From positions 434,001-498,000 of the forward strand of contig NZ_JARUBF010000001.1 of assembly GCF_029626025.1 (NCBI RefSeq): DNA of 64,000 bases, in the 5' to 3' direction. The position numbers were made by a program, and so were the translations under genes. Shown here in pieces: positions 10,845 through 47,991 of this stretch. The DNA comes from Solwaraspora sp. WMMD406. GTDB taxonomy: Bacteria; Actinomycetota; Actinomycetes; Mycobacteriales; Micromonosporaceae. The notes under the pieces were generated by a model that was given only the letters and a program-made list of their open reading frames with translations, ran no database searches and was not told the origin of the DNA. The first letter of the stretch is position 1, and every line of letters begins with the position of its first letter.

Positions 10845-10873
10845 GGGCCGGGTTCCGTGACGGAACCCGGCCC
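10845..10873 (-). terminator. Strong hairpin between the small caspase-side gene and paralogue 1
   Basis: A perfect 13-bp stem, GGGCCGGGTTCCG (10845-10857) and CGGAACCCGGCCC (10861-10873), closes a three-base loop 17 nt after the small gene's stop. There is no T-tract, as is common for actinobacterial hairpins. It would split the cassette into an upstream unit (17910 to 10891) and a downstream unit (10613 to 3778). Confidence 0.65.
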
Positions 10874-10890
10874 GTGTCCCACCTGGAGTG

Positions 10891-11115
10891 TCAGGACATC
10901 TCGCTGGGGCGCGGCCCCGGGTCGAAGTCGAGGACGACGGTGGAGGTGGCCGCTCCGTTGAGGAAGACGGTGACGCGGCGAGCGTCGGCGTCGTAGAGCT
11001 TCAGCTCCACCGACGTACGGTTGGCCATCGCCTCTCGGACCTGCCGGGCCACGTCCGGTGCCTCCGCGTCGGAGACGCTCCACGTCGCCTGCCCGATGGT
11101 GATCTTCTTGGTCAT
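10891..11115 (-). CDS. Small conserved-looking protein of the caspase cassette, unknown function
   Basis: This 74-residue protein begins MTKKITIGQATWSVSDAEAP and ends FDPGPRPSEMS. AAAGGGAG stands seven bases ahead of the ATG. The centre (SVELKLYDADARRVTVFLNG) predicts two beta strands after a helix (VARQVREAM), a compact alpha/beta fold. It follows the caspase gene by 72 nt and precedes the hairpin at 10845. I do not recognise the family. Its fixed place between the peptidase and the terminator suggests an accessory, adaptor or inhibitor role, which is inference only. Confidence 0.6.
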   Translation of the reverse strand: MTKKITIGQATWSVSDAEAPDVARQVREAMANRTSVELKLYDADARRVTVFLNGAATSTVVLDFDPGPRPSEMS

Positions 11116-11187: not shown

Positions 11188-13725
11188 TCAGGCCACTTCG
11201 TCGATCGAGAACGTGAACGTGAAATCCTGCGGATGCCGCACGTGACGACCGATCCCGTACTGTTCCTGCGCCAACAGGGACGTGCGATATAGGCCGATGT
11301 TCGAACCCACGGCCTTGGTCAGGAGTTCGTAGGCCGTGTTCACCAGCACCGCGCCGGCGCCGACGGCCGCGACCGCGGCGGCGGCCTGTGGTGCGGCCAC
11401 CGCGAGACCGACCAGCTCGGCACCGGCGGCCTGCACCAGCGGACTGGTCAGCTTTTCCTGCAGCAGGTCGCCGAGCGCCAGACTGCCGGCGGTGTCGCGG
11501 GACACCCAGACCGCGATGTCGAGGTAGTCGACCGCCGGCCCGTGGTAGATCAGCACGTTGTCGAGCGGCAGCCGTTCACCGTCGGCTATCCGGCTGCACC
11601 GGATGGTTTCCGCGCGGTACGTCAGCTCCTGTCCGGTCCCGCCGGTGCCGCCGGTGCCGCCGGTGAGCACGACCGCGTCCACCCGGATGTCGGCGTTGCC
11701 GAACGCGCGGTTGCGATGCACGATCAACTCGTCGATCCGTACGGCGACCCTGGTCGGCGTGAGGCTCCGCGCGGACAGCAACCGGACCTGTTGGCCCGGC
11801 CGGTCGTCCACCCGGAACGTCGGTTCCTCGACGGTCGGTGGAACGGTCGGACTCACCATGAAGTCGATCGGCACCACGTCGAACCTGACGTCCGACACCG
11901 GCGCGGCACCGACCTCCCGGCTCGCCCCGGTGGCGATCTGCTGCAACAGCCGGCCCAGGTTCGACGTGTCGTCGAAGCGACGGGGCACGTCCCGGACGCC
12001 TTGTTGCCGCAGCACCCCGACGTCGACCGGTTTGTCGCTGATCAGCGCCAGGACGGTCTCCGGTCGCACCGCCGCAGGGACGATGCTCTCCGGCCAGGTC
12101 ACGTCGACACCGGTCAGCCGCTGCCGGTCGTGGTCCCAGCCGTAGGTGTACGACGCGCCGGGAAGGAGCCGGACGCCACCGTGGTCGGCCGCCGTCAGCA
12201 CGGTGACGCGCGACGAGATGCCGACGTCGATCAGCGAGACGTACGCCGTATGTTCGCCTTCGTTGCGCAGCCGAACGTAAATGCGTTCCCCTTCGTAGGC
12301 GAACAGCAGCTCACCGGCCCGGGAGAGCGGGTCCGGCTCACCGTCACGTACCCGCCCCCACTCGATCACCACGCCGTGGCGCAGCGGTCGGTCCGGGTCG
12401 CCCTGTAGTCGGCGCAACGCGGTCGCCTGGGCGATCCGCTGCAGGTTGTCGGTGATCGAGATGATCCCCAGCGGGGTCGCCGGATACGGTTCGTGCAGCG
12501 GCCCGTTCTCGTCCCGTACGACCAGTTTGTGGTCGGTGTCGACGACGACCTCGACGGCGGCCGTCACGTCCGTCGCGGGGTCCGCCGGACGCAGCAGCGT
12601 CCACAGCGACATGGCGTCGCGGAGCTTCGCCGCGACCGCGTCGTCCGCCGGCAGCCGGACCGGCAGCGCCGGTGCCGCCGCGTGGGTACGGTACGCGCGG
12701 GCATCGGCCGGCAGCGACCGGTCCGCCGCCAGGCGTAGCTGCGCGGACGCCATCGTCGGCAGCAACCGGTCGACGGTCGCGGTGCCGAGCGCCGGTCCGT
12801 CCTGCGGCCCGTCGGCGCTGTTCGGCATGATCGCGAATTTGTCACCGACTCCGACGCCGAGCAGTGGCGCGCCGAGCAGTTCGATGCGCTCCGGCCCGGT
12901 CGCCACGACCGACAGACTGTCCACCAGGTCCAGGTCGGTGGTTTCGAACGGCTGTCGGCTGGTCGGCCCCTGCACCTCCGGCCGCTGGGCGGGTTCGAAG
13001 TTCTGCACCTCGCCGCGCACCGTGGTGAGCAACGTCGACCAGTTGATCCGCAGCCCGACCGAGTCACGGATCGCGCGGGTCAGCGCGTCGGTAAACAGTC
13101 CCATCTGGACGCTTTCCCGGTTGGCGGTCTCGTAGGCGGATTCCCACGGCGCGCAGGCCACCACGCGGACCGCGTGCGGGTTGGCGATCAGCGGGCGCTG
13201 GTGTACCGGCAGTCCGTCGGCCGCCTGTCGGTCGATGTACCGGCGGACGGTGTCGTAGGTCGGACGCCAGCGTTCCGGCGCCGAGCGGATCAGGGCCCGG
13301 ACCCGTGCGTCTCGGCGGGACATGTGCGCGGCGTGGCAGCAGTCGTGAATCACCGTGACGTTGTGGGTGACGTCGGTCAGCCGCTTGAGCAGCAGGGACT
13401 GTTCGACGCCGGTGACGCCGCGGAAGTCGTCCTCGGTGGAGTCGTCGTAGTCGTCCGGCACGATGAACTGGAGTTCCGCTCCGTCCGGTGCCAGCAGTCG
13501 ACCGCCATGCCCGCTGAAGTAGACGACGACCGCGTCGTCGGGCCTGGCGTCCGTGATCAACTTTTCGTACGCGTCGAGGATCCGTTCCCGGGTGGCGTCC
13601 GGCGTGACCAGCCGGTCGATCAGGAATCCGCGCTGCGCCAGGGCCAGTCCCATAGCCGTGACGTCGTTGAGCACGCCGCTCAGGCCGTTGGTCTGGGCAC
13701 CGATCAGAAGAGCCTTTCGCGTCAT
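11188..13725 (-). CDS. Caspase-family (peptidase C14) protein with long C-terminal extension
   Basis: The 845-residue protein opens with a caspase fold: MTRKALLIGAQTNGLSGVLN, the catalytic His in VVVYFSGHGG (His73), and the catalytic Cys in VTVIHDCCHAAHM (Cys130, preceded by Asp128 as in the DxCH motif). Both catalytic residues are present, so it should be active. Residues about 280-760 are beta-rich, possibly sensing or effector-binding, with a GGTGGTGG linker. A hydrophobic stretch (LVGLAVAAPQAAAAVAAVGA) lies near residue 780. There is no signal peptide, so it is cytoplasmic or membrane-anchored near its C-terminus. In bacteria such peptidases are often activated by partners encoded nearby, here probably the ATPase and TPR proteins. 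Substrate unknown. Confidence 0.85.
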   Translation of the reverse strand: MTRKALLIGAQTNGLSGVLNDVTAMGLALAQRGFLIDRLVTPDATRERILDAYEKLITDARPDDAVVVYFSGHGGRLLAPDGAELQFIVPDDYDDSTEDDFRGVTGVEQSLLLKRLTDVTHNVTVIHDCCHAAHMSRRDARVRALIRSAPERWRPTYDTVRRYIDRQAADGLPVHQRPLIANPHAVRVVACAPWESAYETANRESVQMGLFTDALTRAIRDSVGLRINWSTLLTTVRGEVQNFEPAQRPEVQGPTSRQPFETTDLDLVDSLSVVATGPERIELLGAPLLGVGVGDKFAIMPNSADGPQDGPALGTATVDRLLPTMASAQLRLAADRSLPADARAYRTHAAAPALPVRLPADDAVAAKLRDAMSLWTLLRPADPATDVTAAVEVVVDTDHKLVVRDENGPLHEPYPATPLGIISITDNLQRIAQATALRRLQGDPDRPLRHGVVIEWGRVRDGEPDPLSRAGELLFAYEGERIYVRLRNEGEHTAYVSLIDVGISSRVTVLTAADHGGVRLLPGASYTYGWDHDRQRLTGVDVTWPESIVPAAVRPETVLALISDKPVDVGVLRQQGVRDVPRRFDDTSNLGRLLQQIATGASREVGAAPVSDVRFDVVPIDFMVSPTVPPTVEEPTFRVDDRPGQQVRLLSARSLTPTRVAVRIDELIVHRNRAFGNADIRVDAVVLTGGTGGTGGTGQELTYRAETIRCSRIADGERLPLDNVLIYHGPAVDYLDIAVWVSRDTAGSLALGDLLQEKLTSPLVQAAGAELVGLAVAAPQAAAAVAAVGAGAVLVNTAYELLTKAVGSNIGLYRTSLLAQEQYGIGRHVRHPQDFTFTFSIDEVA

Positions 13726-13827: not shown

Positions 13828-16800
13828 TCACGCGAAGAAGCCTTCCCGGTGGGCCAGGGCGACCGCCTCGACGGACGAATGGACGCGGAGTTTGCGGTAG
13901 ACGCTACTGAGCTGGGTCTGCACGGTCCGAATCGCCACGCTACGGACGGCGGCGATCTGGCCGGTGGCGTGCCCCTCGCACAGCAGGCGCAGGGTGTCGA
14001 ACTCGGCCTGGGTCAAGCCGTACGGATACCTGGCCGCCGGTCGATCGGCCAAGTCCAGGTCCAGGTCCAGTGTGCGCGCCAACCGCGCGACCTGGTCCCG
14101 CAGTGGCGTGGCGCCGAGTGACTTCGCCACCAGATACGCCTCCCGGACCCGCTGCCGGGCCGCGTCCCGATCACCGGCGACGTGCGCCGCGATGGCCTGC
14201 CGCCACCGGGCGTACGCCGTCGGATACGGCCGGTCCAGCTTCACCCAGCTCACGGCGACCTCGCCCCACCCGGCGGCACTGTCGTTGCCCCGGATCCGCC
14301 GCCGCTCCATCGCGCAGAGCCGGACGAGCTGTGTCGTCTCGGCGTTCGTTGCCGCCTGCCCTGACGCCTGCCCTGACGCCTGTCCTGACGCCTGTCCTGA
14401 CGCCTGTCCTGACGCCGACATCCGCTGCGCCTGTGCGGCTGACCGGGCCAGTCGGTCACCGAGGGCGATCGCGGCCGGCCGGCTCGACTCGACCGACGCC
14501 GCCTGATCGGCCGCGCACCGCATGCCCAGCACGCACAGGCGCAGCACCTCCAGACCGTTCTCGCTCTCCCGGACCGCGACCAGCCCTCGCTCGACCACCT
14601 CGGCCGCCCGGACGAGATCGCCCTGCCAGAGCGCCAACTCCGCCCGTACGGCGTGCAGTGGACCGAGGAAGCGGGGATCGTTGCCCTGCTCGACGCCGTC
14701 GATCGAGTTGAGCAGCTCCTTGGCCTGGGCGTACTCGCCCCGCGCCACCTTGATCTCGGCGAGGGTGAGCCGGGCGTACAGGCTCTCCCCGGGCGGCCGG
14801 TCCGACGACGCCTCCCGGACGATCTCCTCGGCCTCGTCCCACTCGCCCAACAGCACCAGCGCCGCGCTGGCGTTGACGGCCAGCAACCGACCCTGCCGGG
14901 TGTTCGCCAGGTGGAGGCTGCGCGCCTCGTCCAGCCCGGTCCGGTTCGCCTTCGCCGACTCCCTGGTCCGGCCGGCGTGCTCCAGGAACAGCCCGAGGTT
15001 GCCGTAGGCCCGCAGCAGGTCCTCGATGTGGTTGGCTGTCCGGGCGATCTCCAGCGCGCGGCGTAGCCGAACCTCGCCCTCGCCCTCGGCATCGCCCAGC
15101 ATGCCGAGCGCGAGCCCGGAGATGTTCAGCGCCCGGCCCTCCTCAGCCAGCGCGCCGGCCTCCCTCGCCATGGTCAGCGCCGCGTTGGCCTTGTCCCGGC
15201 CGTCGGCGTACCGGCCGTCCCGCAGGTCGGCCAGGGCGAGGCCAGCCTGTACGCGCGCCTTCACCGCCGACGCCAGCCTGGCGTCGAGCAGCTCCGCCGC
15301 CCGCTGGAACGCCGCCACCGAATCGGCCCGCCGCCCGACTTCCCACAGATAAGTGCCACGCCGTTCGTACAGCTCACCGAGCCGGCACGGGTTGGTACCG
15401 GCATCGACCTCCGCGATAGCCTGCCGGACGTGTTCCAGGGCTCGGTCGACTTTGCCGGTCCAGCGGGCGGCCTCGGCGGCCCGGAGCAGCACCTGGTCCC
15501 GGGACATGCCCGCCTGGTGCGATGGGTCCGCCACCCGCTGCCACAGCTGCAGCGCCCGAGTGAACTGGGCCTCCGCCGACGCGAACGCCAGGGTGCGGTA
15601 AGCGGCCTCGCCGGCTTGCACGGCGAAGGACAGCGCCTCCGGCCACATCCCCGCCTGATACCAGTGGCTGGCCTGTTCGGCCACGGCGGAACCGTCGGCG
15701 AGACCGAGCCCCGAACCCCCGGCGAGACCGAGCCCCGAATCTCCGGCGAGTGCCCGCGCCATGGCGATGTGCAGGTCGACCTGGGTGTCGCGGACCGTCC
15801 CCCGATACACCACCTCGCGCAGCAACGCGTGGCGGAACCGGTACGCGTCCTTGTCCTGGCCGGTGACCAGCATCTGCCGGTCGAAGCACTCCTGCAGCGC
15901 GTCCCGCAGGACCTCACCAGGCAGGTCACTGACCGTACGCAACAGTCGCCGACTCATCGCCCGGCCGGCGACCGCCGCCACCCGCAGTACCCACAGCGCG
16001 TCCTTGCCCAGGCCGCTCAACCGAGCCAGGACCACGGACCGGATGTCGTCCGGCAGCCGGACGTCTTCCGGATTGTCCAGGACACCGGCCGCCATCAGCT
16101 GTTCGGCGTAGAACGGAATCCCGTCGGACCACTCCAGACACCGCTCGATCAGCTCCGGATCGACGGTCTCGCTGGCGGCGGAGTTGACGAAGCGCCGCAG
16201 CTCGTCGAGGGTGAAGGCGGGCAGTTCGAGACGTTCGGTCCGGCGCAGGAACGTCGGGCTCGCCAACAGTTGCCACAGCGGGTCCTCCCGGATCAGCCCG
16301 CCGGAGCGGAAGCTGCCCACCAGCAACAGCCGCCGGCCCTCGGCCCGGGTCTGGCCCAGGTGCCGGACCAGGTCGAGCGTGGACGGATCGGCCCAGTGCA
16401 GGTCCTCCAGGATCAGCACCACGGGCGCGTCGTCGCCGATCCGGTCGAGCATCCGGCGGACGGCGAGGAAGACCTGCTGTGGCGAGCCCATCGAGTCCGC
16501 GCCCAGATCGAAGAACTCGGTCAGCCGCTCGTAGGCGGCCCCGCCGAGCTTGACCGCGCGGGCCCTGCCGTACTCACGCCCGAACGAGTCCAGCACCTCG
16601 AGCAGCGGCCCGTACGGCATGGGGTCGCCGAAGTACTCCTCGCCTGCCCCGGACAACACGTGCGCGCCATCGGCCCGCGCCGACGCGGCGAACGTGCTCA
16701 GCAGCCGACTCTTGCCGATGCCGGCGTCACCGCCGATCAGCACGGTCCGCGCCTGACCCTGTCGGGCGTCGGTCAGGCGCCACGCCAGCAGCGCCATCTG

Positions 16801-16839
16801 TTCCGTACGGCCGACGAACTCCGCCTCTGCGGGCACCAC
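13828..16839 (-). CDS. LuxR-family regulator of the large ATP-binding (LAL/MalT-like) type
   Basis: The 1003-residue protein has an N-terminal AAA ATPase with Walker A TVLIGGDAGIGKSRLL (about residues 33-48) and a Walker B-like VVLILEDLHWADPSTLDLV. A long helical-repeat region follows, then a LuxR helix-turn-helix at the end (LTQAEFDTLRLLCEGHATGQ, AIRTVQTQLSSVYRKL). A repeated ASGQ linker corresponds to a 12-bp DNA repeat. LAL proteins are ATP-driven, ligand-triggered activators. Placed directly upstream of the caspase gene in the same direction, it probably senses a trigger and activates the cassette. GTG at 16839 is the start used; an ATG at 16844 is out of frame. Confidence 0.85.
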   Translation of the reverse strand: MVPAEAEFVGRTEQMALLAWRLTDARQGQARTVLIGGDAGIGKSRLLSTFAASARADGAHVLSGAGEEYFGDPMPYGPLLEVLDSFGREYGRARAVKLGGAAYERLTEFFDLGADSMGSPQQVFLAVRRMLDRIGDDAPVVLILEDLHWADPSTLDLVRHLGQTRAEGRRLLLVGSFRSGGLIREDPLWQLLASPTFLRRTERLELPAFTLDELRRFVNSAASETVDPELIERCLEWSDGIPFYAEQLMAAGVLDNPEDVRLPDDIRSVVLARLSGLGKDALWVLRVAAVAGRAMSRRLLRTVSDLPGEVLRDALQECFDRQMLVTGQDKDAYRFRHALLREVVYRGTVRDTQVDLHIAMARALAGDSGLGLAGGSGLGLADGSAVAEQASHWYQAGMWPEALSFAVQAGEAAYRTLAFASAEAQFTRALQLWQRVADPSHQAGMSRDQVLLRAAEAARWTGKVDRALEHVRQAIAEVDAGTNPCRLGELYERRGTYLWEVGRRADSVAAFQRAAELLDARLASAVKARVQAGLALADLRDGRYADGRDKANAALTMAREAGALAEEGRALNISGLALGMLGDAEGEGEVRLRRALEIARTANHIEDLLRAYGNLGLFLEHAGRTRESAKANRTGLDEARSLHLANTRQGRLLAVNASAALVLLGEWDEAEEIVREASSDRPPGESLYARLTLAEIKVARGEYAQAKELLNSIDGVEQGNDPRFLGPLHAVRAELALWQGDLVRAAEVVERGLVAVRESENGLEVLRLCVLGMRCAADQAASVESSRPAAIALGDRLARSAAQAQRMSASGQASGQASGQASGQASGQAATNAETTQLVRLCAMERRRIRGNDSAAGWGEVAVSWVKLDRPYPTAYARWRQAIAAHVAGDRDAARQRVREAYLVAKSLGATPLRDQVARLARTLDLDLDLADRPAARYPYGLTQAEFDTLRLLCEGHATGQIAAVRSVAIRTVQTQLSSVYRKLRVHSSVEAVALAHREGFFA
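14354..14413. repeat. Five tandem 12-bp repeats inside the LAL gene
   Basis: The unit GCCTGYCCTGAC is repeated five times without interruption. On the coding strand it gives the repeated tetrapeptide (S/A)GQA. The length stays in frame, so copy number could vary without breaking the gene. It lies in a linker between helical repeats. Confidence 0.85.
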
Positions 16840-28066: not shown

Positions 28067-28971
28067 CCCCGACCCGGCACGACGATCGACTATCCGGCGG
28101 TCGGTCCGATTCATTGGATAACGTCCCGTCAGCCGTGGTTGGTGTCTGGTGAGCTGACCGTGGCCAACCGTGGGCGGAATGCGAGGTTCGGCTCGCCGTC
28201 TGCCGGTCGTCGGTGCGGTTGCTGCCGAGGATTGCTTCGGTTGCGGCATGGGCAAGGATGGCTTGGGTGGTGGCGGGTAGTCCGATCCGGTTCCAGTGAA
28301 AGATCACGTGTTCGGTGATGATCGCGCGTAGTCCGCGGGTGAGTGAGCCGGTGGCGCGCAGGCCGGCAAGGGCGGTGCCGGCGTGCGCGAAGGCGGTGTG
28401 CCAGTCGCTCGTGGTGTGGGAGTGGCCGAGTAGCAGGTGGCGGATCTTGTCGGTGAACGATTCCCAGGTGGCGGAGTCGGTGCGGGTGGCTGGGTGGGGG
28501 GTGGTCGGGGCGATGTTGTGCGGCGCGGGCCCAGACGTCGGCTTGTTCGTTGATGTCGAGTCCGGCGGCGCGCATCAGTGCGGTGGTGAGGATGAGTGAG
28601 TGTTCGCGTCGGTTGGTGGGTTGGTCGTGGAGGTAGGTGAGGAGGTGGTGGCTGTCGTGGTGGAACAGGGTGTGGGCGGTGTTCATCGCGTCGGGGCCGC
28701 CGAAGGTGTGGGTTTCGGGTTCGTAGATGTCGTGGGTCCAGGGGACGTTCTGGGTGAGGAGGCGGTGTGCGGGGTCGGGGTGGTCGGTGGGTGTTGCGGG
28801 CAAGTAGCGGATGCGCCAGGGTCCTTTGCGGATGAACCACCATGCGGTGATGAGGCCGGCGGTTTCGGCGGCGGGCAGCACGCTGCGTAGGTGGGGTATG
28901 GCGTTGTGTTCGCGTTCGTGGCGGCTGCGGCCGGGGTAGTCGATGGTCACCTGTTTCCAGACGGTGTCCAT
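28017..28971 (-). pseudogene. Thiopeptide-type (elimination-domain) lanthipeptide biosynthesis protein, frameshifted
   Basis: ATG at 28971 opens MDTVWKQVTIDYPGRSRHER and continues through ITAWWFIRKGPWRIRYLPAT and ADVWARAAQHRPDH. At a run of six G on the plus strand (28496-28501) the frame breaks. One base fewer gives PHPATRTDSATWESFTDKIR, then LLLGHSHTTSDWHTAFAHAG and EHVIFHWNRIGLP, running to about 28017. The family is the stand-alone domain that removes glutamate from glutamylated Ser/Thr to form dehydroamino acids. Without correction the product would be truncated in frame 1 at 28129 with a nonsense tail. Either decay, slippage-controlled, or a sequencing error in the homopolymer. Confidence 0.75.
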
Positions 28972-28994: not shown

Positions 28995-30077
28995 TCAGTG
29001 CAGGAGGAGGCAGGCGTCCCACCCGGTCGTGGTGGTCGCTGCGGTGGCGAGTCGGGTGCCGCTGGTGCCCCCGAGAAGTCCGGCGGGCTCGTCGGCGTTG
29101 GTGGAGCTGGTGGTGCGCTGGTGCAGACGGGTCAGCGGCGTGACGGGTGTCGGGGTGAGCGCGTCGGCGGCGATGCGCCGGCCGACCGCGAGGAGGCCGG
29201 CGGTGCCGTGGCAGAGGCTGCGGTCGGTGAGTCGGCGGATCTGTTCGGGGTCGTTCACGCAGGTGGTGAACGCGGTGTCGGCGAGGTGGCGCCGGGGGGT
29301 GTCGTTCAGGGCGATGCCGGCCAGTTGCTGGGCGCGGGCGATGCCGGGGGTGCCGTAGCACCAGGAGGGCCGCAGTGGCTGTCGCTGCGCTGGTGTGCCC
29401 CGGTGTACGTCGTCGAGGGTGAGTGTTTGCGGCCACCAGGTAGCGCCGTCGGTGTGCTGCTGCCACCGGTCCAGCCAGTCACATATCCGCATGATCGCGG
29501 TGGTGTGTCCGTTGACGCTGATGCCGTCGCGGTGCGTGAGGGCGAGCAGTGCGAGGGCCCCGGTGATGCCATGGGCGAGGCCGTGGTTGGCGTGACCCCC
29601 ACGCGGTGGCGGCTGGTGGCGGTCGGGTCCGTTGGCGCACCACCAGCCGGGAAGGCCGTCGACAGGTTCGGTGAGGCGGACCAGGTAGTCGAGGACGTGG
29701 CGGAGCAGGTCGTGATCGCCGAGGCGGCGCAGGGCGACACCGAGGCCGGTCACGCCACGGATGAGGTCGTACTCGGCGTAATGCGGCCGGCGGCGGGAAT
29801 CGATACGGCGGTGGGCGGCGTCGAGCCGTCGGCGGGTCACGGTGGCGGTGCCGGACGCTGCGACGGTTCGGGCCCGCGCGAGCCGGGGGTGGTCGGCAGT
29901 GGCGAGGACGAAGGCGAGCGCGGGTGCGCCGTGGAAGAGGCTGGCGCCGTCGGCGATGCTGACGCCGTCGGCGGCGGCTTCCCGCAGGGCGGCGTACGCG
30001 GCCAGCCAGTCGCCGGTTTCCAGATGCAGCAGGGCGACCCCGGCCGCGCCGTCGGCGAGGGACTGCCCGCTGCTCAT
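28995..30077 (-). CDS. lanC: LanC-type lanthionine cyclase
   Basis: The 360-residue protein has LanC family features: a glycine-rich helical toroid with ANHGLAHGITGALALLAL, the zinc ligands SWCYGTPGIARAQQL (Cys) and RSLCHGTAGLLAVG (Cys-His), and a final LLGGTSGTRLATAATTTTGW segment. LanC adds cysteine thiols to dehydrated Ser/Thr to make lanthionine rings. Its ATG overlaps the lanB stop (ATGA at 30074-30077). All three zinc ligands are present and the frame is intact, unlike its two neighbours. Confidence 0.9.
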   Translation of the reverse strand: MSSGQSLADGAAGVALLHLETGDWLAAYAALREAAADGVSIADGASLFHGAPALAFVLATADHPRLARARTVAASGTATVTRRRLDAAHRRIDSRRRPHYAEYDLIRGVTGLGVALRRLGDHDLLRHVLDYLVRLTEPVDGLPGWWCANGPDRHQPPPRGGHANHGLAHGITGALALLALTHRDGISVNGHTTAIMRICDWLDRWQQHTDGATWWPQTLTLDDVHRGTPAQRQPLRPSWCYGTPGIARAQQLAGIALNDTPRRHLADTAFTTCVNDPEQIRRLTDRSLCHGTAGLLAVGRRIAADALTPTPVTPLTRLHQRTTSSTNADEPAGLLGGTSGTRLATAATTTTGWDACLLLH

Positions 30078-32849
30078 GAGGTCGCCTGGTGGGTGCGGGC
30101 GACGGCGCGGGCCAGCCGCAGGCAGTGCCGTTCGGAGGCGGGGTCGACGCCGATCATGCGGGCGTGGTGCAGGTGCAGCAGGTCAGCCAGCACCTGGTCG
30201 AGGTCGAGGCCGTCGGCGTGGGCGAGGTCCCGGTAGACGGACAGCGCCGCCGCACGATCATCGTCGCGATGTGGGGTGCGGACGAGGTCGAGTTGGGCGG
30301 GGTCGAGTCGCGGGCCGCTGCGGTGCGGGACGTGGTCGGTGAGCCAGCGTGGCCCGTCGCCGGTGAACGCGTCGGCGACGGCGATCATGCCGGCGGCGGT
30401 GACGGCCTGGCGGTCCGCACCGCAGACGCGGTCGCCGGTCAGCCGCCGTAGCGCTGTGCGGGAGTCAGCGGCGAACACGGCCTCGGCGGCGGCGAGCGTG
30501 GGTCCGGTGCCGTGGCGGGTCTCGGGCCGGTACGTATGCAAACTGTAGTCGTGCAGGACGCCGTCGTGTTCCAGGCGGTGTGTCCACTCGGCGAGGCGTC
30601 CGGCGATGCCGGCGAAGCTCGTCGCGTCGGGCAGTGGGATGCGTAGCCGCAGGTGGGGTTCGGGGTCGGGGTAGCGCAGGAACCACCAGCCCACCGGGAG
30701 CACGGGCGCGGTCTGTCGGGTGAGGTCGGTGAGGATGTCGTCGAGCCGCCCGTACAGCCGGGTTTCCAGCCACGGTGACGACGGCGCGGGCCGGTGCGCC
30801 ACGGCGGTCACGGCCCGGACCGGCCTGGCGCGCTCGGTAGGGCGGGTTGCTGGTGGGGTGTCGGTGAGGGTGAGCAGGATTTCGGCGGGCCGGTCGTCGA
30901 TCCAGCCGGCCGGGCCGGGCGCTTCGGTGACGACCGTCCGAGCATGTCGGTCGAGGTGGCGGCGCAGCACGACGAGGTGGGTGTCGTCGTCGAGGTTCAG
31001 GCGCAGCCGCACGTCATCGCCACCGCCGAGCAGGATCTCAGCCGGGAGCTGGTGGTGTTCGCGGTGCCGCTGCCAGGCGTCCCGCCACACCGGCCAGGGC
31101 ACACCGGGTGGGAGGATGTGTCGGTCGATGACCCATCGAGCGGGGTGCAGCACGCTGCGTCCGCGCCGCACCCGGGGCAGGAACGGCAGGTCGTGTGCCT
31201 GTCCCCAGTCGAACCGGCTGCAGGGTGCCGTCCACGCCGTCGAGATCTCGGTCAGGAACCGTGTCAGCGGCTGCTGCAGGTCGGGCAGCAGCACGCTGTT
31301 GAACAGCAGCGGCTCGACCGTCCGGCCGGTGCTGCGGGAGACCAGCCACAGCCGGCGGCCATCGCCGGTCACGGCGAGATCCGCGACTGTGTACGGCGGG
31401 TCGGGGTGGAAGTCCCCGACGGGCAGGACGGGCAGCAGTTCAGGTGTCCGCGCGAGCGGGGTCAGACGCGGGTCCAGCGGCGGACCGGACAGCTGCACCG
31501 CGTCCGCGTCGGGCAGCACGGTCGGCAGACTCCGGTAGACCTGCTGGAACGACGACAGCTCGCCGGGGGTGAGCAGGTGCAGGAACCGGCCGGCAGACAC
31601 CCCGGCATGGCGGGCGCCACTGGCCACGGTCAACGTGAACCTGCCCTGGTCCAGATCCCGTAGGGACGCGGCCGCGAGCGTGAACCGCAGCTCCGTGTGT
31701 GGCGTCGGCTGCCGGTCGTCGTCTCCCCGTAGCCGACCGACCAGGTCGTCGTCGAGGACGGCCTCGGCCCGGCCGTCCACCGCCGACCGCTGAGCCAGAT
31801 GGGCGAGCAGCCGGTCACGGGCCGAGAACCCTGCCGGCACCCGCCGGATCGACCCCCGGTATCCGGCGGGAAAACCCAGCACGTTCACCACCTCCCGCAG
31901 CGGCACCGCCGCTCCCGGACCCCACCGCTGGATGAAGGCACCGTGATACTCCACCCACCCGGGCGTAGGAGGTGCCACCGCCGCCAACGTCGCCGCCGCC
32001 CGACCCGCCTCGCGCAGAACCCGCCGCAGGCAGCGTCACCGACACGTCCAGACGCACGTCGGCCGCGACCCTCCCGCCGGGGTCGGGAACCGTACCGTGG
32101 CGGGCCAGGTGGGCCACCGGGTCGGTGACCGTCATCGCCGGCCGCAGCGCCGACAGCAGCACCCCCGACCGCACCAGCGTGGCCAGCATCCGCTCGGCCG
32201 CAGCCACCCCCGCCGGCGACGGCCCGCCGACCCGCCCCGCCAACACCGTGAACGCGACCGGCCGGGCGGCGGCGTCGATCACCGCCCGCACCGGCCCGGT
32301 CAACCGGACCTCGACGTCCCGCCTGCGGTCACCGTCGGTACGGGCGCAGGGCACCACCCACACCCCGCCACGCCGGTACCCCACCACGTTCGTCACCACC
32401 GCGACACCCCGCAGGACGGTCACGTCCTGCTCCGCGCGGGCGGTGACCTCGGCGACGAACTCGCCGTCCGGGCGGACGACCACCCGGTGCGCCCCGCCCC
32501 ACCGCACGCCCGCGTGGGCACCGAACTCGACCGGCGCCACCCCGGCGAAGACACCGAACGGCGTCGCCCGTGTCGTCCACCGCAGCAGGTACCGCACGAC
32601 CGTCTCGACCAGGCGACGCCACCGGCGACCCGACATCGGCTCGCCGGCCGCCACCCGGCCGATCCGTTCGGCGAGCTCCGGCGTGGCGGAGGCGACCGCC
32701 GCCGCGAAACCCGGCAACGCCCACACCTGCACCAGCCAATCCCGCCACGGCTCCGGCTGCTCCGATGTCAGGTCGGGCCAGGCCGGCACGGTCAGCCCGT
32801 CCGGGTAGGCGGCGGCTCTGACCAGGGCCGCACCCGCCGCAGGAACCAC
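30074..32849 (-). pseudogene. lanB: LanB-type lanthipeptide dehydratase, frameshifted near residue 276
   Basis: Two frames make one dehydratase of about 924 residues. The N-terminal part from GTG at 32849 has RATPFGVFAGVAPVEF and VVTNVVGYRRGGVWVV, typical of the glutamylation domain, and is in frame to VRLDVSVTLPAA. A CCC run on the plus strand (32020-32022) then has one base too many; correcting it gives REAGRAAATLAAVAPPTPGW, which continues in the second frame to 30074. The C-terminus has VLPVGWWFLRYPDPEPHLRL, the elimination domain. LanB uses Glu-tRNA to dehydrate Ser/Thr in the precursor. The second frame alone starts at 31987. Real decay or sequence error cannot be told apart here. Confidence 0.85.
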
Positions 32850-32870: not shown

Positions 32871-32897
32871 GGGCCCGGCGTCCGGGACGCCGGGCCC
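32871..32897 (-). terminator. Hairpin between precursor gene and lanB (likely attenuator)
   Basis: Stem GGGCCCGGCGTC (32871-32882) pairs with GACGCCGGGCCC (32886-32897), about 20 nt after the precursor stop and 22 nt before lanB. Partial termination here would give more precursor transcript than enzyme transcript, a common design in lanthipeptide operons. Confidence 0.75.
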
Positions 32898-32917: not shown

Positions 32918-33064
32918 CTACTTGCCGCCGCCGGAGCAGGCGTTCGACCCGGTGTTACCCGAGCCGCAGTTGTCGTCGGTGTTGGTGGCGTACCCGCCCG
33001 CTGCGGGGCCGGCGTCGACCAGGGTGATGTCCAGGTCGAACTCCTCGATTTCCGTGGTCTCCAC
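32918..33064 (-). CDS. lanA: FxLD-family lanthipeptide precursor
   Basis: A 48-residue peptide from GTG at 33064: METTEIEEFDLDITLVDAGP then AAGGYATNTDDNCGSGNTGS and NACSGGGK. The leader motif EFDLDI is the FxLD signature. The core has two Cys (33, 43) and several Ser/Thr, enough for two rings, plus a TDDN patch where the FxLD methyltransferase could act on Asp. AAGGGA stands eight bases upstream, inside the end of the methyltransferase gene. The gene is shorter than typical gene-calling cutoffs and easily missed. Confidence 0.9.
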   Translation of the reverse strand: METTEIEEFDLDITLVDAGPAAGGYATNTDDNCGSGNTGSNACSGGGK

Positions 33065-33079
33065 TCGCGTTTTCCCTTC

Positions 33080-34318
33080 TCATGCGGGGTTGAAGGTGAG
33101 GACGACACGGCTGTGCCGCTTGTCCAGCACCGTCCCGGCCGGCAGGTCACCGTCGGGAGTAGCCGCGGGCAGCACCTGCAACGCCGGGGCCGGCTCGCCG
33201 CCGTCCACCCAGTCGCGCATGTGCGCCACCATCCGCTCCGCCGCAGCGGCGGCGTCCGGCCCGTGAGCACACGCACCCACATCGAACCGGTCCCCGGTCC
33301 AGGCCAGCGCCGACCGGTAGGAGAACGTGCCCTCGTGCAACGCGGCCGGCGTACCGAACCGCCACGCGGGCGCCACCACGCCCGCGTCGACCGCTTCCTG
33401 CTGTGCCGACAGCACCACGAACTGATCCACCTCAGCGGACAGACGCACCGCCAGCCACAGATCCAGATCCGCCAGCACGGTACGGGGCGGCAGACTCACC
33501 CCGGCCCACACCTGCTCACGCGGCTGCGACAGCAACCCGGCGACCGACTCCGCCGACACCGGCTGGTCCTCGTCCAGCCGCAGATGCACCCCGTCGGCGA
33601 TGTCGACATAGCGCATCTCGTGCGCACCGGCACCCTGCATCGACACGAACCCACACAGACGCTGACTGTGGCTCACCAGCCGGTCACCGACCCGACGCAA
33701 CGCCCACGACCGGGTCATCCCGAACGTCCGCAACGGCACCACCAGCACCCCGTCCTCGGCGAGCTGCGCGACCCACGACTCCGGGACATCCCACGCCCCC
33801 GCCGTCACGATGATCAGGTCGAACCGGCGACCCGGCTCGATCGGCCGCTCGGCGTCGGCACACACCACCGTCACATCGCCGTAGCCCGCAGCCGCCAGAC
33901 AGGCCACCGCCCGCTCCGTCACATCCGGATCGATGTCCACCGTCGTCACCGAACCCGACGGGCCCACCAACTCCCGCAGCAACGACGCGTTGTAGCCACC
34001 CGAACCGACCTCCAACACATGCCGACCGAGCAGGCCGCCATCGAAGGCATCAGCCGCCTGACCCAGCATCTCCGCGATCAACCACGGCGCCGACACCGAA
34101 CTCACGGTCTCCGCACCCCGCCGCTTCGTGATGACCGCGCTGTCACCCCGATACGCCTCCTCCAACGGCACACCCGGCGTGTACAACTCACGCGGCACCA
34201 CCCGCAACGCCGCCTCCACCTCCGGCCGCATCGTCAGACCCTTTGCCGCATGATCAGTGACCAACCCATCCACCATCGCCGCCCGCAGACCATCGCTGGT
34301 CACCATGTCGACACTCAT
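33080..34318 (-). CDS. FxLD-system methyltransferase (protein-isoaspartate methyltransferase-like)
   Basis: The 412-residue protein opens MSVDMVTSDGLRAAMVDGLV and carries a PCMT-type SAM domain: RRGAETVSSVSAPWLIAEML, HVLEVGSGGYNASLLRELVG, VTTVDIDPDVTERA and FDLIIVTAGAWDVPESWVAQ. A C-terminal domain of about 180 residues is specific to the lanthipeptide-linked form. Known relatives methylate Asp in the cyclised core to promote succinimide and isoaspartate formation; the DD pair in the precursor core is a possible target (inference). It is the first gene of the cluster, 15 nt ahead of lanA. Confidence 0.85.
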   Translation of the reverse strand: MSVDMVTSDGLRAAMVDGLVTDHAAKGLTMRPEVEAALRVVPRELYTPGVPLEEAYRGDSAVITKRRGAETVSSVSAPWLIAEMLGQAADAFDGGLLGRHVLEVGSGGYNASLLRELVGPSGSVTTVDIDPDVTERAVACLAAAGYGDVTVVCADAERPIEPGRRFDLIIVTAGAWDVPESWVAQLAEDGVLVVPLRTFGMTRSWALRRVGDRLVSHSQRLCGFVSMQGAGAHEMRYVDIADGVHLRLDEDQPVSAESVAGLLSQPREQVWAGVSLPPRTVLADLDLWLAVRLSAEVDQFVVLSAQQEAVDAGVVAPAWRFGTPAALHEGTFSYRSALAWTGDRFDVGACAHGPDAAAAAERMVAHMRDWVDGGEPAPALQVLPAATPDGDLPAGTVLDKRHSRVVLTFNPA

Positions 34319-34705
34319 CCGCTACGCCACTCCCCATCTGTCACGGCCGCCCATCCGGACGACCCGCTCGGTCGGATCGCTGCCCGGTCCTGAACACATC
34401 TTCGCGACCACCATCTGAAGCCCCACCGTTCCCAGCAGGTCGCGGTGATCGTGCGCCACAATCCCCAGACGCAGACAAGGCGCTGGATCAAAGGTTGGTC
34501 GCATCCACTCAACGCCTGAACGTCGATGTCGAACACCCTCGACACGAATCCTCGACAACGTCCCGCCACTCTGTTTGGGCCGGCCGGGATACCGCTGTGC
34601 GGGCCGGGTGTGACCCCGGTCTCGATTGTCGGCTAGTGTCGACGTGCCGTGAGGGGTACGTGGCGAATGGTGATCTGCACTGCGATGACGGTGGAGGGCT
34701 TCCTC
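34319..34705. other. Divergent promoter region between lanthipeptide operon and XRE-TPR regulator
   Basis: No convincing gene was found. Open frames on the minus strand are Trp/Cys/Arg-rich background. The GTCGGCTAGTGTCGAC stretch (about 34630-34645) could include a -10 (TAGTGT) for the plus-strand regulator. GGGGAG precedes the methyltransferase start on the other strand. Confidence 0.4.
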
Positions 34706-36088
34706 GTGGATCCGCAGCAGCTCAGTGACGTGAAGCGGGCGCTTGGACGTCGGCTCGCCGGATGGCGTAGGACGCGCGGGCTCACCCAGGATGACGTGGC
34801 ACGGCGGGTACACAGCACTCGCAGCACCGTGGGCAACGTCGAATGCGGCCGGCAGGTGGTTGACCGGGTCTTCTGGGTACAGTGCGACTCGCTCCTCGAC
34901 GCCGGCAGCGAACTGATCTCCGGCTACGACGAATACCGGGCTCTCGAAGCACGGCTTAAGGAAGAGAAGGCCGAGGCGGCTCGTCAGGCGCGGTGGAAAG
35001 CTGTCGACCCCCGGGTGCTGGCGCAAGCGAGTCCAGCGGACGTGGTCCCCGGCGCTCGTGCGCTGGCGGCATCACCTGCTGGCGAGCGCCTCTCCCAGGG
35101 TGATGGTCACGACGGTGTAGGGACCGGCTCGTCGGTGGGTGGCGACGACGTTGAAGGGTTGCGTCGCTCGCTCAATGAGTTATTGAGTTCGGGATCGATG
35201 ACCTCGGTCGGGCTGGACGAGTGGGAACAGGTCGTCGCCGGGCACGGCCGTGCGACGCGAGACCGCCCAACCGCTGTGCTGCTCGCCGAGTTCGTCGCTG
35301 ACCTCGGCGAGTTGAGAGAGGTCATCGGACGTCATCCGTCGGCTTCCACCCTGCGTCGCGTGACCAGGATGGCCTCGCAAATGTCGGGTCTGATGTGCCT
35401 TGTTCTGTGCAGGGTCGATGACCGGTCGGCCGCCCACCGATGGGCACGCACCGCTCGGCTCGCCGCCGTCGAAGCAGGAGACCCGGTGACGCGCTCCTGG
35501 GTGCTCGCTCAGGAAGCACATGTCTACTACTATGGCGCGGACTTCCGGGAGACGATCGACCTCGCGCGGCACGCGCAGGAGATCGCCAGGCAGGCGTCGG
35601 TGGGAACTGCCTTGGCGGCGGCGGTCGAAGCACGGGCGTACGCCGCGACGGGACAGCGCGAGCAGACCCGGACCGCGTTGGGACGCGCCGAGGACATGCT
35701 GTCCCGCCTCGAAGGAGACGACCTCAATTCCTCCGCGTTCGGCTACAGCGAGGCCCAGCTGCGGTTCCATGAGCAGAACGCCTACACCCGTCTGGGCGAT
35801 GTCGAGGCGGCACTCGCCGTCCAGGATCGGGCGCTGGAGCTCTGTCCACCCGCCGACTACACCGACTGGGCACTGACCCGACTGGATCGCGCCACTTGTC
35901 TGACTGTCACGGGCCATGCGTCCGACGCTCTGGACCAAATCGCGGACACGATCGGCAGCCTCGACGAGGCGAAGCGTCAGGGCATAATCGCCGAGCGGGC
36001 GCGTCATGTCCTTGACGCGCTGCCCGCGACGCAACGTTCCGCGTCGACCGCAGGCGACCTGCGAGCGCTGTTGACGACGGCCAGATAG
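34706..36088 (+). CDS. XRE-family regulator with TPR-like C-terminal domain
   Basis: The product is 460 residues from GTG at 34706 (MDPQQLSDVKRALGRRLAGW), chosen because GTGGAGGG ends eight bases before it. The N-terminal helix-turn-helix is RTRGLTQDDVARRVHSTRST VGNVE split across its second helix, followed by a linker rich in charged residues. From about residue 160 there are helical repeats (AHRWARTARLAAVEAGDP, FRETIDLARHAQEIARQASV). Such regulators often sit beside FxLD lanthipeptide genes and are likely to control them through a peptide or small ligand bound in the repeats. It starts a plus-strand unit with the GNAT gene, 15 nt apart. Confidence 0.8.
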   Translation: MDPQQLSDVKRALGRRLAGWRRTRGLTQDDVARRVHSTRSTVGNVECGRQVVDRVFWVQCDSLLDAGSELISGYDEYRALEARLKEEKAEAARQARWKAVDPRVLAQASPADVVPGARALAASPAGERLSQGDGHDGVGTGSSVGGDDVEGLRRSLNELLSSGSMTSVGLDEWEQVVAGHGRATRDRPTAVLLAEFVADLGELREVIGRHPSASTLRRVTRMASQMSGLMCLVLCRVDDRSAAHRWARTARLAAVEAGDPVTRSWVLAQEAHVYYYGADFRETIDLARHAQEIARQASVGTALAAAVEARAYAATGQREQTRTALGRAEDMLSRLEGDDLNSSAFGYSEAQLRFHEQNAYTRLGDVEAALAVQDRALELCPPADYTDWALTRLDRATCLTVTGHASDALDQIADTIGSLDEAKRQGIIAERARHVLDALPATQRSASTAGDLRALLTTAR

Positions 36089-43912: not shown

Positions 43913-45373
43913 GTGCTGCTGACCGTTACGACCACCCACGAGCCCGCTACGGATCTCGGCTACCTGTTGGTCAAGCATCCGGACCGGATGCAGTCGTTCG
44001 ACGTACCCACCGGAACCGCCCACGTGTTCTACCCGGAGGCCTCCGATCAGCGCTGCACCGCCGCGCTGCTGCTCCACGTGGATCCGGCCCGGCTGACCGC
44101 CGCCCGGGGCGCGCGGCGCGGCCGGGGATCGACGCCGATGCCGGAGAGCTTCACCCTCGGGCAGTACGTCAACGACCGGCCGTACGCGGCCTCCAGCCTG
44201 CTCGCGGCAGCCCTGGCCAAGGTGTTCCGGTCGGCGCTGCGTGGCGAGAGCCGGGATCGTCCCGAACTCGCCGGCACCGCGCTGCCGCTGATCATCCGGG
44301 TGCCGGTGCTGCGGTGTCGGGGTGGTGCCGCGCTGGCCGAACGCCTGTTCACCCCGCTGGGTTGGGCGGTGAGCGCCCGTGGCATCCCGCTCGACGAACG
44401 ATTCCCGCACTGGGGCGACAGCCGCTACGTCGACCTGACCCTGACCGGGTCGCTGCGGCTCGCGGACGCGCTCAACCACCTGTACGTGCTGTTGCCGGTG
44501 CTCGACGACGCGAAACACTACTGGGTGGCCCCGGACGAGCTGGACAAACTGCTCCGCGCCGGGGAGGGGTGGCTGGCCGGTCACCCGGAGCGCCGGCTGA
44601 TCACCCGGCGCTACCTGGCCCACCGCCGGCTCCTGGCCCGCCAGGCGCTCGACCGGCTCGCTGACGAACCGACCAGCGCCGACGCCGACCCGGACGCCGG
44701 ACCGCCGGCCCCGGCCCACCGGCAACCCCTCGCCACGCTGCGGCGGGCCGCCGTCCTCACCGCGCTGGTCGACTCCGGCGCCCGTCGGGTCCTCGATCTC
44801 GGCTGCGGCGACGGGGCGCTGCTGACCGAACTCCTCGCCCAACGGCAGTTCACCGAGATCGTCGGCACCGACGTGTCGGCCCGTGCCCTGGAGCTGGCCG
44901 CCCGGCGGCTACGGCTGGATCGGCTCCCTGCCCGACAGCAGGAACGGGTCAAGCTCTGGCAGTCCGCGCTGACCTACCGCGACGACCGGCTCCGCGGGTT
45001 TGACGCCGCCGTACTGATGGAGGTGGTGGAGCACGTCGACCCGGCCCGGCTGCCTGCCTTCGCCGATGTCGTCTTCGGCCACGCCCGCCCCACGACGGTC
45101 GTGCTGACCACGCCCAACGTGGAGTACAACGTCCGCTACGACGACCTGCCCGCCGGCACGTTGCGCCACCCCGATCACCGGTTCGAGTGGACCCGCGCCG
45201 AGTTCGCCGACTGGACGTCACGGGTCGCCGCCGCGTACGGCTATCAGGTGGACCGGCATCCGGTCGGTGACCTCGACGACGAGGTCGGCCCACCTACCCA
45301 GCTGGCGGTGTTTCGCCGCGACGGCGTCGCGACGGGGCCGGCGACAGAGACTTCGACAGGGGTCGCCCGGTGA
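43913..45373 (+). CDS. hen1: RNA 3'-terminal ribose 2'-O-methyltransferase Hen1
   Basis: The 486-residue protein (GTG start) has an N-terminal domain (MLLTVTTTHEPATDLGYLLV) of the bacterial Hen1 type and a C-terminal methyltransferase: RRVLDLGCGDGALLTELL (SAM), LMEVVEHVDPARLPAF (EVVEH metal site) and HRFEWTRAEFADW. It methylates the 2'-OH at the 3' end of RNA broken by ribotoxins before the partner ligase reseals it, which blocks repeat cleavage. Its stop overlaps the pnkp start (GTGA at 45370-45373). Together they form the Pnkp-Hen1 RNA repair heterotetramer. Confidence 0.95.
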   Translation: MLLTVTTTHEPATDLGYLLVKHPDRMQSFDVPTGTAHVFYPEASDQRCTAALLLHVDPARLTAARGARRGRGSTPMPESFTLGQYVNDRPYAASSLLAAALAKVFRSALRGESRDRPELAGTALPLIIRVPVLRCRGGAALAERLFTPLGWAVSARGIPLDERFPHWGDSRYVDLTLTGSLRLADALNHLYVLLPVLDDAKHYWVAPDELDKLLRAGEGWLAGHPERRLITRRYLAHRRLLARQALDRLADEPTSADADPDAGPPAPAHRQPLATLRRAAVLTALVDSGARRVLDLGCGDGALLTELLAQRQFTEIVGTDVSARALELAARRLRLDRLPARQQERVKLWQSALTYRDDRLRGFDAAVLMEVVEHVDPARLPAFADVVFGHARPTTVVLTTPNVEYNVRYDDLPAGTLRHPDHRFEWTRAEFADWTSRVAAAYGYQVDRHPVGDLDDEVGPPTQLAVFRRDGVATGPATETSTGVAR

Positions 45374-47991
45374 CCGCGCTGGAGATTCCGGAACTCGCGT
45401 TGGTGGCCCTGGTCGGCCTCTCCGGATCGGGCAAGTCGACCTTTGCCCGCCGGCACTTCGCGCCGACCCAGGTGCTCTCCTCCGACGCCTTCCGGGCCAT
45501 GGTCGCCGACGACGAGAACGACCAGTCGGCGTCCACCGACGCCTTCGACGCCCTGCACTACGTCGCCGGCAAACGGCTGCGCGCGGGCCGACTCACCGTG
45601 GTTGACGCCACCAACCTGCAGCAGCACGCCCGCGCGGGGCTGGTCCGGCTGGCCCGCGAGCACGACGTGTTGCCGGTCGCGGTGGTGCTCGACGTACCGG
45701 AGGAGATCTGCTGGGACCGGACCCGGGTCCGCCCGGAGCGTCGGTTCGGCCGGCACGTGCTGGCCCGGATGCAGCGTGATCTGCGCCGATCGGTCGGTCA
45801 GCTGGCTCGGGAGGGGTTCCGCAAGGTGCACGTGCTGCGGGGCACCGAGGAGATCGACGCGGCGGAGGTCGTGTTGAGCCGGCTGTTCAACGACCGCCGG
45901 GAGCTGACCGGGCCGTTCGACATCATCGGCGACGTGCACGGTTGCCGGGCCGAGCTGGAGCACCTGCTCACCGAGCTCGGCTGGACGCTCGACCGTGACG
46001 GAGCGGGCCGCCCGGTCGGCGCGCGGCACCCGCAGGCCCGTACCGCCGTTTTCGTCGGTGACCTGGTCGACCGGGGTCCGGACTCGCCCGGTGTGCTGCG
46101 CCTGGTGATGGGGATGGTCCGGGCCGGCAACGCGCTGTGTGTGCCGGGCAACCACGAGCAGAAGCTGCTCCGCAAGCTGCGGGGCCGTAAGGTGACCGTC
46201 TCGCACGGGTTGGCCGAAACCCTGGAACAGCTGGCCGCCGAGCCGGCCGGGTTCAGCGACGAGGTGGCCGAATTCATCGACGGGCTGGTCAGCCACTACC
46301 GGCTCGACGGGGGCGCGCTGGTGGTGGCGCACGCCGGGCTCAAGGCCGAATACCAGGGGCGGGCGTCCGGCCGGGTGCGCAGCTTCGCGTTGTACGGGGA
46401 GACCACCGGCGAGACCGACGAGTACGGCTTCCCGGTGCGGTATCCGTGGGCCCGTGACTACCGGGGCTCGGCCACGGTCGTCTACGGCCACACACCCACC
46501 CCGAGTCCGGAGTGGATCAACGACACCATCTGCATCGACACCGGATGTGTCTTTGGTGGCCGGCTGACCGCGCTGCGCTATCCGAGCCGGGAGCTGGTGT
46601 CGGTGCCGGCGGCCCGGGAGTACTACCCGCCGGGCCGGCCGCTGACCGCCGAGCCGGTGACACCGGCCGGTGACGCGACCCGGTCGACCGGCGCGGTCCC
46701 GGGCGGTGGCGCGGCGGTGGAGCGCGGCGGAGCGGCGGTGGAGCGCGGTGACGACGTGTTGGATCTCGGCGACGTTGCCGGCCGTCGACACATCGCCTAC
46801 GGCTACGGCGCCACGACGATCGCCCCGGAGAACGCCGCCGCCGCGCTGGAGGTGATGAGCCGCTTCGCCGTCGACCCCCGCTGGCTGGTGTGGCTGCCGC
46901 CGACCATGGCCCCCTGCTCGACGTCCACCATGGACGGGTTTCTGGAGCACCCGACCCAGGCGTTCGCCGACTACCGTGGCGTCGGCGTCGATCAGGTGAT
47001 CTGCCAGGAGAAACACATGGGATCCCGAGCGGTGGTGCTGGTCTGCCGCGATCCGGCCGGGGCGGCCCGTTTCGGTCCGGGTGGCGGGGTGATCCATACC
47101 CGTACCGGACGGCCGTTCTTCGCCTCCGGCGCGCAGACCGAGTCGCTGCTCGCCCGGATCCGGGCGGCGGCGACCACGGCTGGACTGTGGGACCTGCTGG
47201 CCACCGATGCCGGCCCGGCCAGCTGGCTGCTGCTCGACTGCGAGCTGCTGCCCTGGTCGGCCAAGGCGCTCGGGTTGATCCGTGAGCAGTACGCCAGCGT
47301 CGCGGCGGCCGGGGGTGCGGCGCTGCCGGCCGCGCTGCGGGTGCTCGACGCGGCCGCCGAACGTGGGCTACCGGTCGAGCCGCTGCGGGACCGGTTCGCC
47401 GGTCGCGCCGACGACCTGTCGCGGTACGCGGCGGCCTACCGCCGGTACGCCGGCGACGGGCAGCCGGTGACGCTGGCACCGTTCACGGTCCTGGCCAGCG
47501 ACCAGCGCAGCCACGCCGACCGGGACCACGGTTGGCACCTCGATCACGCGGACCGGCTGGTGGCCGCCGACCCGGAGCTGTTCCGCCCGACCCGTCGGCT
47601 GGTGGTCGACCTGACCGACGACACGGCGGTGGCGGCGGGCACCGAATGGTGGCGGGAGCTGACCGCCGCCGGCGGGGAGGGGATGGTGGTCAAGCCGTAC
47701 GGCGGGCTCGCCGCCACAAGCGACGCTGGCCGGTTGCTGCAACCCGGTGTGAAGTGCCGGGGCCCGGAGTATCTGCGGATCATCTACGGACCGGAGTACA
47801 CCCGACCGGATCAGCTCGCCGGGCTGCGCCGACGGTCGTTGGGACGCAAGCGGTCGCTGGCGCTGCGCGAGCACGGCCTCGGCTTGGCGGCGTTGGACCT
47901 GCTGGCGGCCGACGCTCCGCTGTGGCGGCGGCACGAGCTGGTGTTCGCGATCCTCGCCTGTGAGTCCGAGCCGGTCGACCCCCGGCTGTGA
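45370..47991 (+). CDS. pnkp: Polynucleotide kinase-phosphatase-ligase Pnkp
   Basis: The 873-residue protein has three domains. Kinase: LVGLSGSGKSTFARRHF (Walker A, about residues 13-30). Phosphatase (metallo-type): FDIIGDVHGCRAELEHLL, FVGDLVDRGPDSPGVLRL and CVPGNHEQK. Ligase/adenylyltransferase: VICQEKHMGSRAVVLVC, with the nucleotidyl Lys in the EKHMGSR motif, and GMVVKPYGG near the end. It heals the ends of cleaved tRNA and, activated by Hen1, seals them. The last residues and stop lie in a 28-bp tandem repeat, so the exact C-terminus may vary between strains. Confidence 0.95.
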   Translation: MTALEIPELALVALVGLSGSGKSTFARRHFAPTQVLSSDAFRAMVADDENDQSASTDAFDALHYVAGKRLRAGRLTVVDATNLQQHARAGLVRLAREHDVLPVAVVLDVPEEICWDRTRVRPERRFGRHVLARMQRDLRRSVGQLAREGFRKVHVLRGTEEIDAAEVVLSRLFNDRRELTGPFDIIGDVHGCRAELEHLLTELGWTLDRDGAGRPVGARHPQARTAVFVGDLVDRGPDSPGVLRLVMGMVRAGNALCVPGNHEQKLLRKLRGRKVTVSHGLAETLEQLAAEPAGFSDEVAEFIDGLVSHYRLDGGALVVAHAGLKAEYQGRASGRVRSFALYGETTGETDEYGFPVRYPWARDYRGSATVVYGHTPTPSPEWINDTICIDTGCVFGGRLTALRYPSRELVSVPAAREYYPPGRPLTAEPVTPAGDATRSTGAVPGGGAAVERGGAAVERGDDVLDLGDVAGRRHIAYGYGATTIAPENAAAALEVMSRFAVDPRWLVWLPPTMAPCSTSTMDGFLEHPTQAFADYRGVGVDQVICQEKHMGSRAVVLVCRDPAGAARFGPGGGVIHTRTGRPFFASGAQTESLLARIRAAATTAGLWDLLATDAGPASWLLLDCELLPWSAKALGLIREQYASVAAAGGAALPAALRVLDAAAERGLPVEPLRDRFAGRADDLSRYAAAYRRYAGDGQPVTLAPFTVLASDQRSHADRDHGWHLDHADRLVAADPELFRPTRRLVVDLTDDTAVAAGTEWWRELTAAGGEGMVVKPYGGLAATSDAGRLLQPGVKCRGPEYLRIIYGPEYTRPDQLAGLRRRSLGRKRSLALREHGLGLAALDLLAADAPLWRRHELVFAILACESEPVDPRL

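Follow-up and report, generated by a model that had tools for sequence, protein, structure and literature searches.

Among the class I lanthipeptide clusters found in actinobacteria, those for lanthimiditides are the most common. In the olv system of Streptomyces olivaceus, according to passages of PMC13001092, the methyltransferase OlvSA works only after LanB and LanC, and turns a conserved Asp of the precursor OlvA into isoaspartate by way of a methyl ester and then an aspartimide, which opens to 70-80% isoAsp. The published modification site is TxDGC, with other residues after the Asp also noted in the passages that treat it (PMC10787088, PMC13001092). In the coi system of Streptomyces coelicolor, as set out in sections of PMC9486935, the precursor CoiA1 bears rings T43-C47, T50-C55, and C51-T57, the last of which requires the syn-type lyase domain of CoiSA; lyases of this type are marked by Lys instead of Tyr and are without the catalytic Arg of anti-type lyases.

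The window, a 64,000-nucleotide stretch of DNA from Solwaraspora sp. WMMD406, contains a five-gene cassette on its minus strand, with gene order PIMT-like methyltransferase (33080..34318), precursor gene lanA (32918..33064), a 12-bp hairpin (32871..32897), LanB, LanC, and stand-alone glutamyl lyase. The LanB dehydratase occupies two frames, a 5' part (31960..32849; PF04738) and a 3' part that includes a glutamyl-lyase domain (30074..31987; PF04738, PF14028, TIGR03891), with the frame broken at about 32022-31960. The LanC cyclase (28995..30077; PF05147, 8.7e-35) is intact at 360 residues, and the stand-alone lyase, of the SpaB_C type (28129..28971; TIGR03891, 121.5 bits), has its own frame break near 28515. 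LanB, frame-broken though it is in WMMD406, and LanC beside a precursor containing Cys and Ser/Thr identify a class I lanthipeptide system, and the combination of lanA, lanB, and lanC with a PIMT-type methyltransferase is the same as that given for olv in the relevant passages (PMC13001092, PMC9486935). The cassette is syntenic in two genomes of the same genus, where the methyltransferase is 95% identical, and in three more from the family (75-78%). By analogy with olv and coi, from which we infer the chemistry and the ring pairs, the precursor gene probably specifies an aspartimide- or isoaspartate-forming class I lanthipeptide, that is, a lanthimiditide, belonging to a two-Cys clade.

The precursor gene encodes 48 residues from a GTG start, and its translation ends in TNTDDNCGSGNTGSNACSGGGK. 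The start lies 15 bases downstream of the stop of the methyltransferase gene, and a Shine-Dalgarno-like sequence, GAAGGGAA, is read upstream of the GTG (33072..33079), with comparable sites in relatives. A first-pass annotation had described an FxLD precursor of exactly this length, start, and position, and the peptide does match TIGR04363, the FxLD precursor model, with an E-value of 2.4e-13 and a score of 49.8 bits against a curated cut-off of 30. The leader recognition motif is FDLD, residues 9-12 (33029..33040). A YxLN variant of the leader is also common within the two-Cys clade, many members of which thereby differ from the FxLD families in having LN in place of LD. In each of the two same-genus genomes almost the same peptide is found at the equivalent locus, and the three other family members have similar peptides. 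As many as 186 ORFs of at least 40 residues overlap window positions 22000-44000, very many of them spurious, which is the one point in favor of the ORF having arisen by chance in GC-rich DNA; the TIGR04363 match, the synteny, and the conservation of the core over many genera rule that explanation out, leaving it a negligible probability. A disulfide peptide or plain bacteriocin is disfavored because LanB and LanC flank the gene. The GTG ORF encodes a true precursor of a class I lanthipeptide. Searches of the PDB with the precursor peptide or an OlvA-like core returned no meaningful match, and a promoter scan limited to the sigma-70 consensus detected no promoter.

Scanning contigs of genomes with six methyltransferases as queries gave 80 loci which, with the window and three further loci (L042-L044), make a set of 84. 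The core T-x-D-x-C-G-S-G-x-T occurs in 53 of these, in 48 distinct peptides. Residues T29, D31, C33-G36, and T38 belonged to the search pattern, and their full conservation in the 53 loci is conditional on it. At positions outside the pattern, A42 is found in 48 of the 48 distinct peptides and C43 in 47, while position 40 is Ser in 47 and Thr in one. The exception at Cys43, in locus L079 (the same stretch as L046), has Gly there and a Cys four residues later (NAGTTRC), and its sequence suggests that the Cys of the second ring is able to shift position. In a methyltransferase tree of 93 rows, from which L099 and L105 were left out, a single clade of 54 rows is recovered with an SH-aLRT of 100. 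The core accompanies 51 of these; the three others comprise a locus where no precursor was found (L077), one with a truncated precursor (L106), and one with a truncated methyltransferase (L117). Hosts belong to Micromonosporaceae, Thermomonosporaceae, Streptosporangiaceae, Frankiaceae, Nocardiopsidaceae, Pseudonocardiaceae, and Nocardiaceae. Of 394 genomes from the class, 39 contain matches at E <=0.001 to a profile built from 32 peptides, and 15 genomes score above 70 bits; the remaining matches are distant FxLD peptides. The first-pass annotation had called the two-Cys core unusual, yet it is typical of its own clade and is unusual only when set against the OlvA- or CoiA-type cores with three or four Cys.

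No description of the two-Cys clade was found in the openly readable text of the literature, and as far as that search reached the clade is uncharacterized. It may correspond to one of the class I families designated I 1-4 in Walker 2020, which in actinobacteria likewise pair a PF01135 methyltransferase with a conserved Asp in the core (PMC7268733). That the core is nearly fixed across several families might reflect a single conserved target or role, in contrast to antibiotics, which change quickly.

The methyltransferase is a LanSA/PAMT-type protein of 412 residues, with a PIMT domain and a C-terminal domain, and scores 413.1 bits to TIGR04364, the FxLD-system methyltransferase model, against a curated cut-off of 320; both FxLD models, for precursor and enzyme, are thus matched above cut-off at this locus. 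An AlphaFold2 model (pLDDT 91.9) spans the two domains, and its top Foldseek match, over 388 columns, is 1DL5, the Thermotoga maritima PIMT with an extra C-terminal domain. When both domains are superposed the rmsd to 1DL5 is 9.4, so the domains are oriented differently relative to each other. The modeled structure is that expected of a lanthimiditide enzyme, a RiPP-associated PIMT with an additional C-terminal domain, a PAMT-type feature shared with olv as described in the same passages. The motif WxxxGxP, reported for lasso, graspetide, and imiditide enzymes in part of a review (PMC13001092), is present at residues 370-376 (33191-33211). Within the clade its W and P are each found in 51 of 51 methyltransferases and its G in 45 of 51; at the equivalent positions of 42 rows outside the clade, W occurs in 41, G in 10, and P in 26. 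Possession of the motif is a difference from olv, to judge from the passages that describe that system. The lyase-methyltransferase fusion of the coi type is absent: the 412-residue methyltransferase is without a lyase, which is encoded by a separate ORF.

Sequence comparisons point to one aspartate as the site of modification. The WMMD406 peptide contains TDDNC, an instance of the lanthimiditide core TxD[G/N]C, and an earlier proposal held that the Asp pair, next to the first ring, is a candidate site where the PCMT-like methyltransferase makes isoaspartate. The proposal is sound in outline, as the homologous OlvSA does just this, but the chemistry is not new because the site is the TxD(G/N)C of the lanthimiditides, already described for OlvA. 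Only the second Asp of the pair, Asp31, is likely to be modified, because position 30 varies while TxDxC persists. Of the 48 distinct clade peptides, 41 have D at position 30, six have S, and one has N; in precursors encoded next to related methyltransferases outside the clade, TxDxC is retained and the same position is S, D, N, A, or G. Asp30, the other half of the proposed pair, is accordingly disfavored. Nor would the modified residue sit beside the first ring: Asp31 (32972-32974) is predicted to lie inside it, within Thr29-Cys33, much as the Asp of OlvA is placed in an N-terminal MeLan ring in the passages on olv. The residue after Asp31 is N in 23 peptides, G in 15, D in 6, E in 3, and K in 1, and the predominance of D-N over D-G is a further departure from olv as there described. 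A final product that retains the aspartimide rather than isoAsp, or a modification at Asp30 in place of Asp31, seems to us rather unlikely. The presence of Asp30 in most clade peptides would fit the latter, against which stands the variation just given; the commoner Asp-Asn would fit the former, as would the isolation, mentioned in part of PMC13001092, of lasso peptides and graspetides of the same methyltransferase group as aspartimides, and the prevailing opening of the OlvA aspartimide to isoAsp stands against it.

We predict two separate rings by analogy with mCoiA1. Ring A, T29-D30-D31-N32-C33 (32966..32980), follows the conserved TxDxC and the T43-C47 ring of CoiA1, and ring B, T38 to C43 (32936..32953), has the same i,i+5 spacing as CoiA1 T50-C55 (relevant sections of PMC9486935); these pairings depend on aligning the peptide with CoiA1 by means of an insertion of two residues relative to the latter. 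OlvA, in the passages that describe it, has more rings than would be formed from the two Cys of the clade, the second of which ends its GSGxTxSxAC sequence. The Cys of the overlapping third ring of coi, C51, is missing. At the equivalent position, 39, 41 of the 48 peptides have Gly, that of WMMD406 among them, with E in two, D in two, N in one, and A in one also present and no Cys among those listed; the C51 ring of CoiA1 is of the d-allo-l-MeLan type according to sections of PMC9486935.

The same sections describe coi as combining a full-length LanB, whose lyase domain is anti-type, with a further lyase of the syn (Lys) type, and the two-Cys clade shares this arrangement, with the difference that its lyase is a separate gene and that of coi is fused to the methyltransferase. 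According to the corresponding passages, olv lacks a stand-alone lyase. The lyase domain of LanB has the anti-type Tyr (30671-30673). In the stand-alone lyase, Lys replaces it (28825-28827, in an RK motif) and the anti-type Arg is absent, both being marks of a syn-type lyase; its signatures in WMMD406 are WWFIRKGPWRIR and EPETHTFGG. The gene is present in 45 of the 53 core loci, the contigs of the other eight ending first, with LanB incomplete or absent, and all 45 clade loci with the gene encode the syn-type Lys (in L079 by way of WWYIRK). By its sequence signatures, therefore, a syn-type lyase is retained although the Cys of coi's overlapping ring is missing, and the sole characterized type of target is not evident. 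The enzyme may merely assist glutamate elimination at T29 or T38. More speculatively, and with no great confidence, we suggest that it was kept after loss of its known ring (CoiA1 C51-Thr57) and now acts on Thr29 or Thr38, which would give either a rare d-allo-l-methyllanthionine enclosing or adjoining the isoaspartate or a stable (E)-Dhb, in a small bicyclic peptide whose core is nearly fixed over several actinobacterial families. With its nearly invariant core, the two-Cys clade offers a minimal substrate for studying the purpose of the aspartate change, and is suited to asking how the methyltransferase recognizes one ring and what role a syn-type lyase has without its known ring.

A working order for the pathway can be drawn from OlvA and CoiA1. 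LanB and LanC would bind the FDLD leader, and LanB would glutamylate Thr29 and Thr38, with glutamate eliminated by LanB's own lyase domain, the stand-alone lyase, or both. LanC would then add Cys33 onto Dhb29 and Cys43 onto Dhb38, closing two separate methyllanthionine rings. The cyclized peptide would be recognized by the methyltransferase, which would methylate Asp31 in ring A, and the ester would pass through aspartimide to mainly isoaspartate.

A stem-loop of 12 bp separates lanA from lanB. In 48 of 53 clade loci the stop codon of the precursor gene is followed by a stem of 10 bp or longer, versus 23 of 509 random places in the same loci; of 20 precursors from outside the clade, 16 have such a stem. 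Across 20 clade sequences, 7 of 11 pairs have changes in both partners, pairing is kept in 99.5% of cells, and none of 500 shuffles reaches the covariation score; the z-score of the window hairpin itself is modest, at -2.06. A hairpin between lanA and lanB in lantibiotic operons is usually read as an attenuator or stabilizer, and this one is probably an attenuator or mRNA stabilizer as well.

Two genes of the cassette are disrupted in WMMD406. The lanB gene, in two frames here, is a single open frame in all five relatives compared (L042 to L046), and the stand-alone lyase gene, also in two frames, is a single open frame in the same-genus loci L042 and L043. If real, these breaks would block maturation, and on its sequence WMMD406 may fail to mature the peptide altogether. 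Recent inactivation of the cluster, with the peptide possibly made and not matured and the intact biology found in relatives, is a serious possibility to which we give slightly less than even weight. Several large genes in other parts of the window are judged full length from Pfam, among them a Pnkp ligase of 873 residues and a Clp ATPase of 863 residues, so indels do not pervade the assembly, a point in favor of inactivation. Against it, substitutions on the WMMD406 branch (51 synonymous and 35 nonsynonymous for LanB, 24 and 16 for LanC, 10 and 12 for the methyltransferase) are similar to those of two relatives and include no excess of amino-acid changes. Long-standing decay of lanB is therefore unsupported; these counts give no sign of lost constraint, so the breaks are either very recent or local errors in GC-rich sequence.

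Among 30 loci examined over 14 kb by clustering of ORFs at 28% identity, a level that divergent genes could escape, no protease, transporter, or immunity gene was co-conserved with the cassette; trimming and export would therefore rely on genes elsewhere. A helix-turn-helix family, at 8 of the 30 loci, was the only recurrent neighbor. In the window, an NsdA-family TPR/helix-turn-helix regulator (34649-36088, plus strand) is divergent from the cassette, and NsdA-like matches occur near the cassette in L042, L043, and L044 as well.

The same genome contains a second FxLD lanthipeptide cluster (L047, G000:C1:1895000-1912000), with a precursor near 13917-14029 ending in LLADTDDGCDTVKGSDC. Its LanB is in one long frame, and a 928-residue open frame has a methyltransferase match, with lyase similarity in or beside that frame. 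Related PIMT-like methyltransferases, about 40% identical, occur at L048 (G000:C1:9729-10931) and L057 (G006:C1:4906022-4907224), with no LanB or LanC found within either stretch. Near each end of the 7.1-Mb contig G000:C1, at 9729-10931 and at 7109609-7110811, the same methyltransferase match occurs on the same strand, as would be seen if a circular chromosome had been left with an untrimmed overlap. Elsewhere in the window, a CHAT-domain protein, a caspase-domain (Peptidase_C14) protein, and an AAA/LuxR regulator are clustered on the minus strand (4685-7843, 11188-13725, and 13828-16839), and the plus strand encodes, at 45370-47991, a full-length RNA repair protein of the Pnkp type that combines kinase, phosphatase, and ligase domains.
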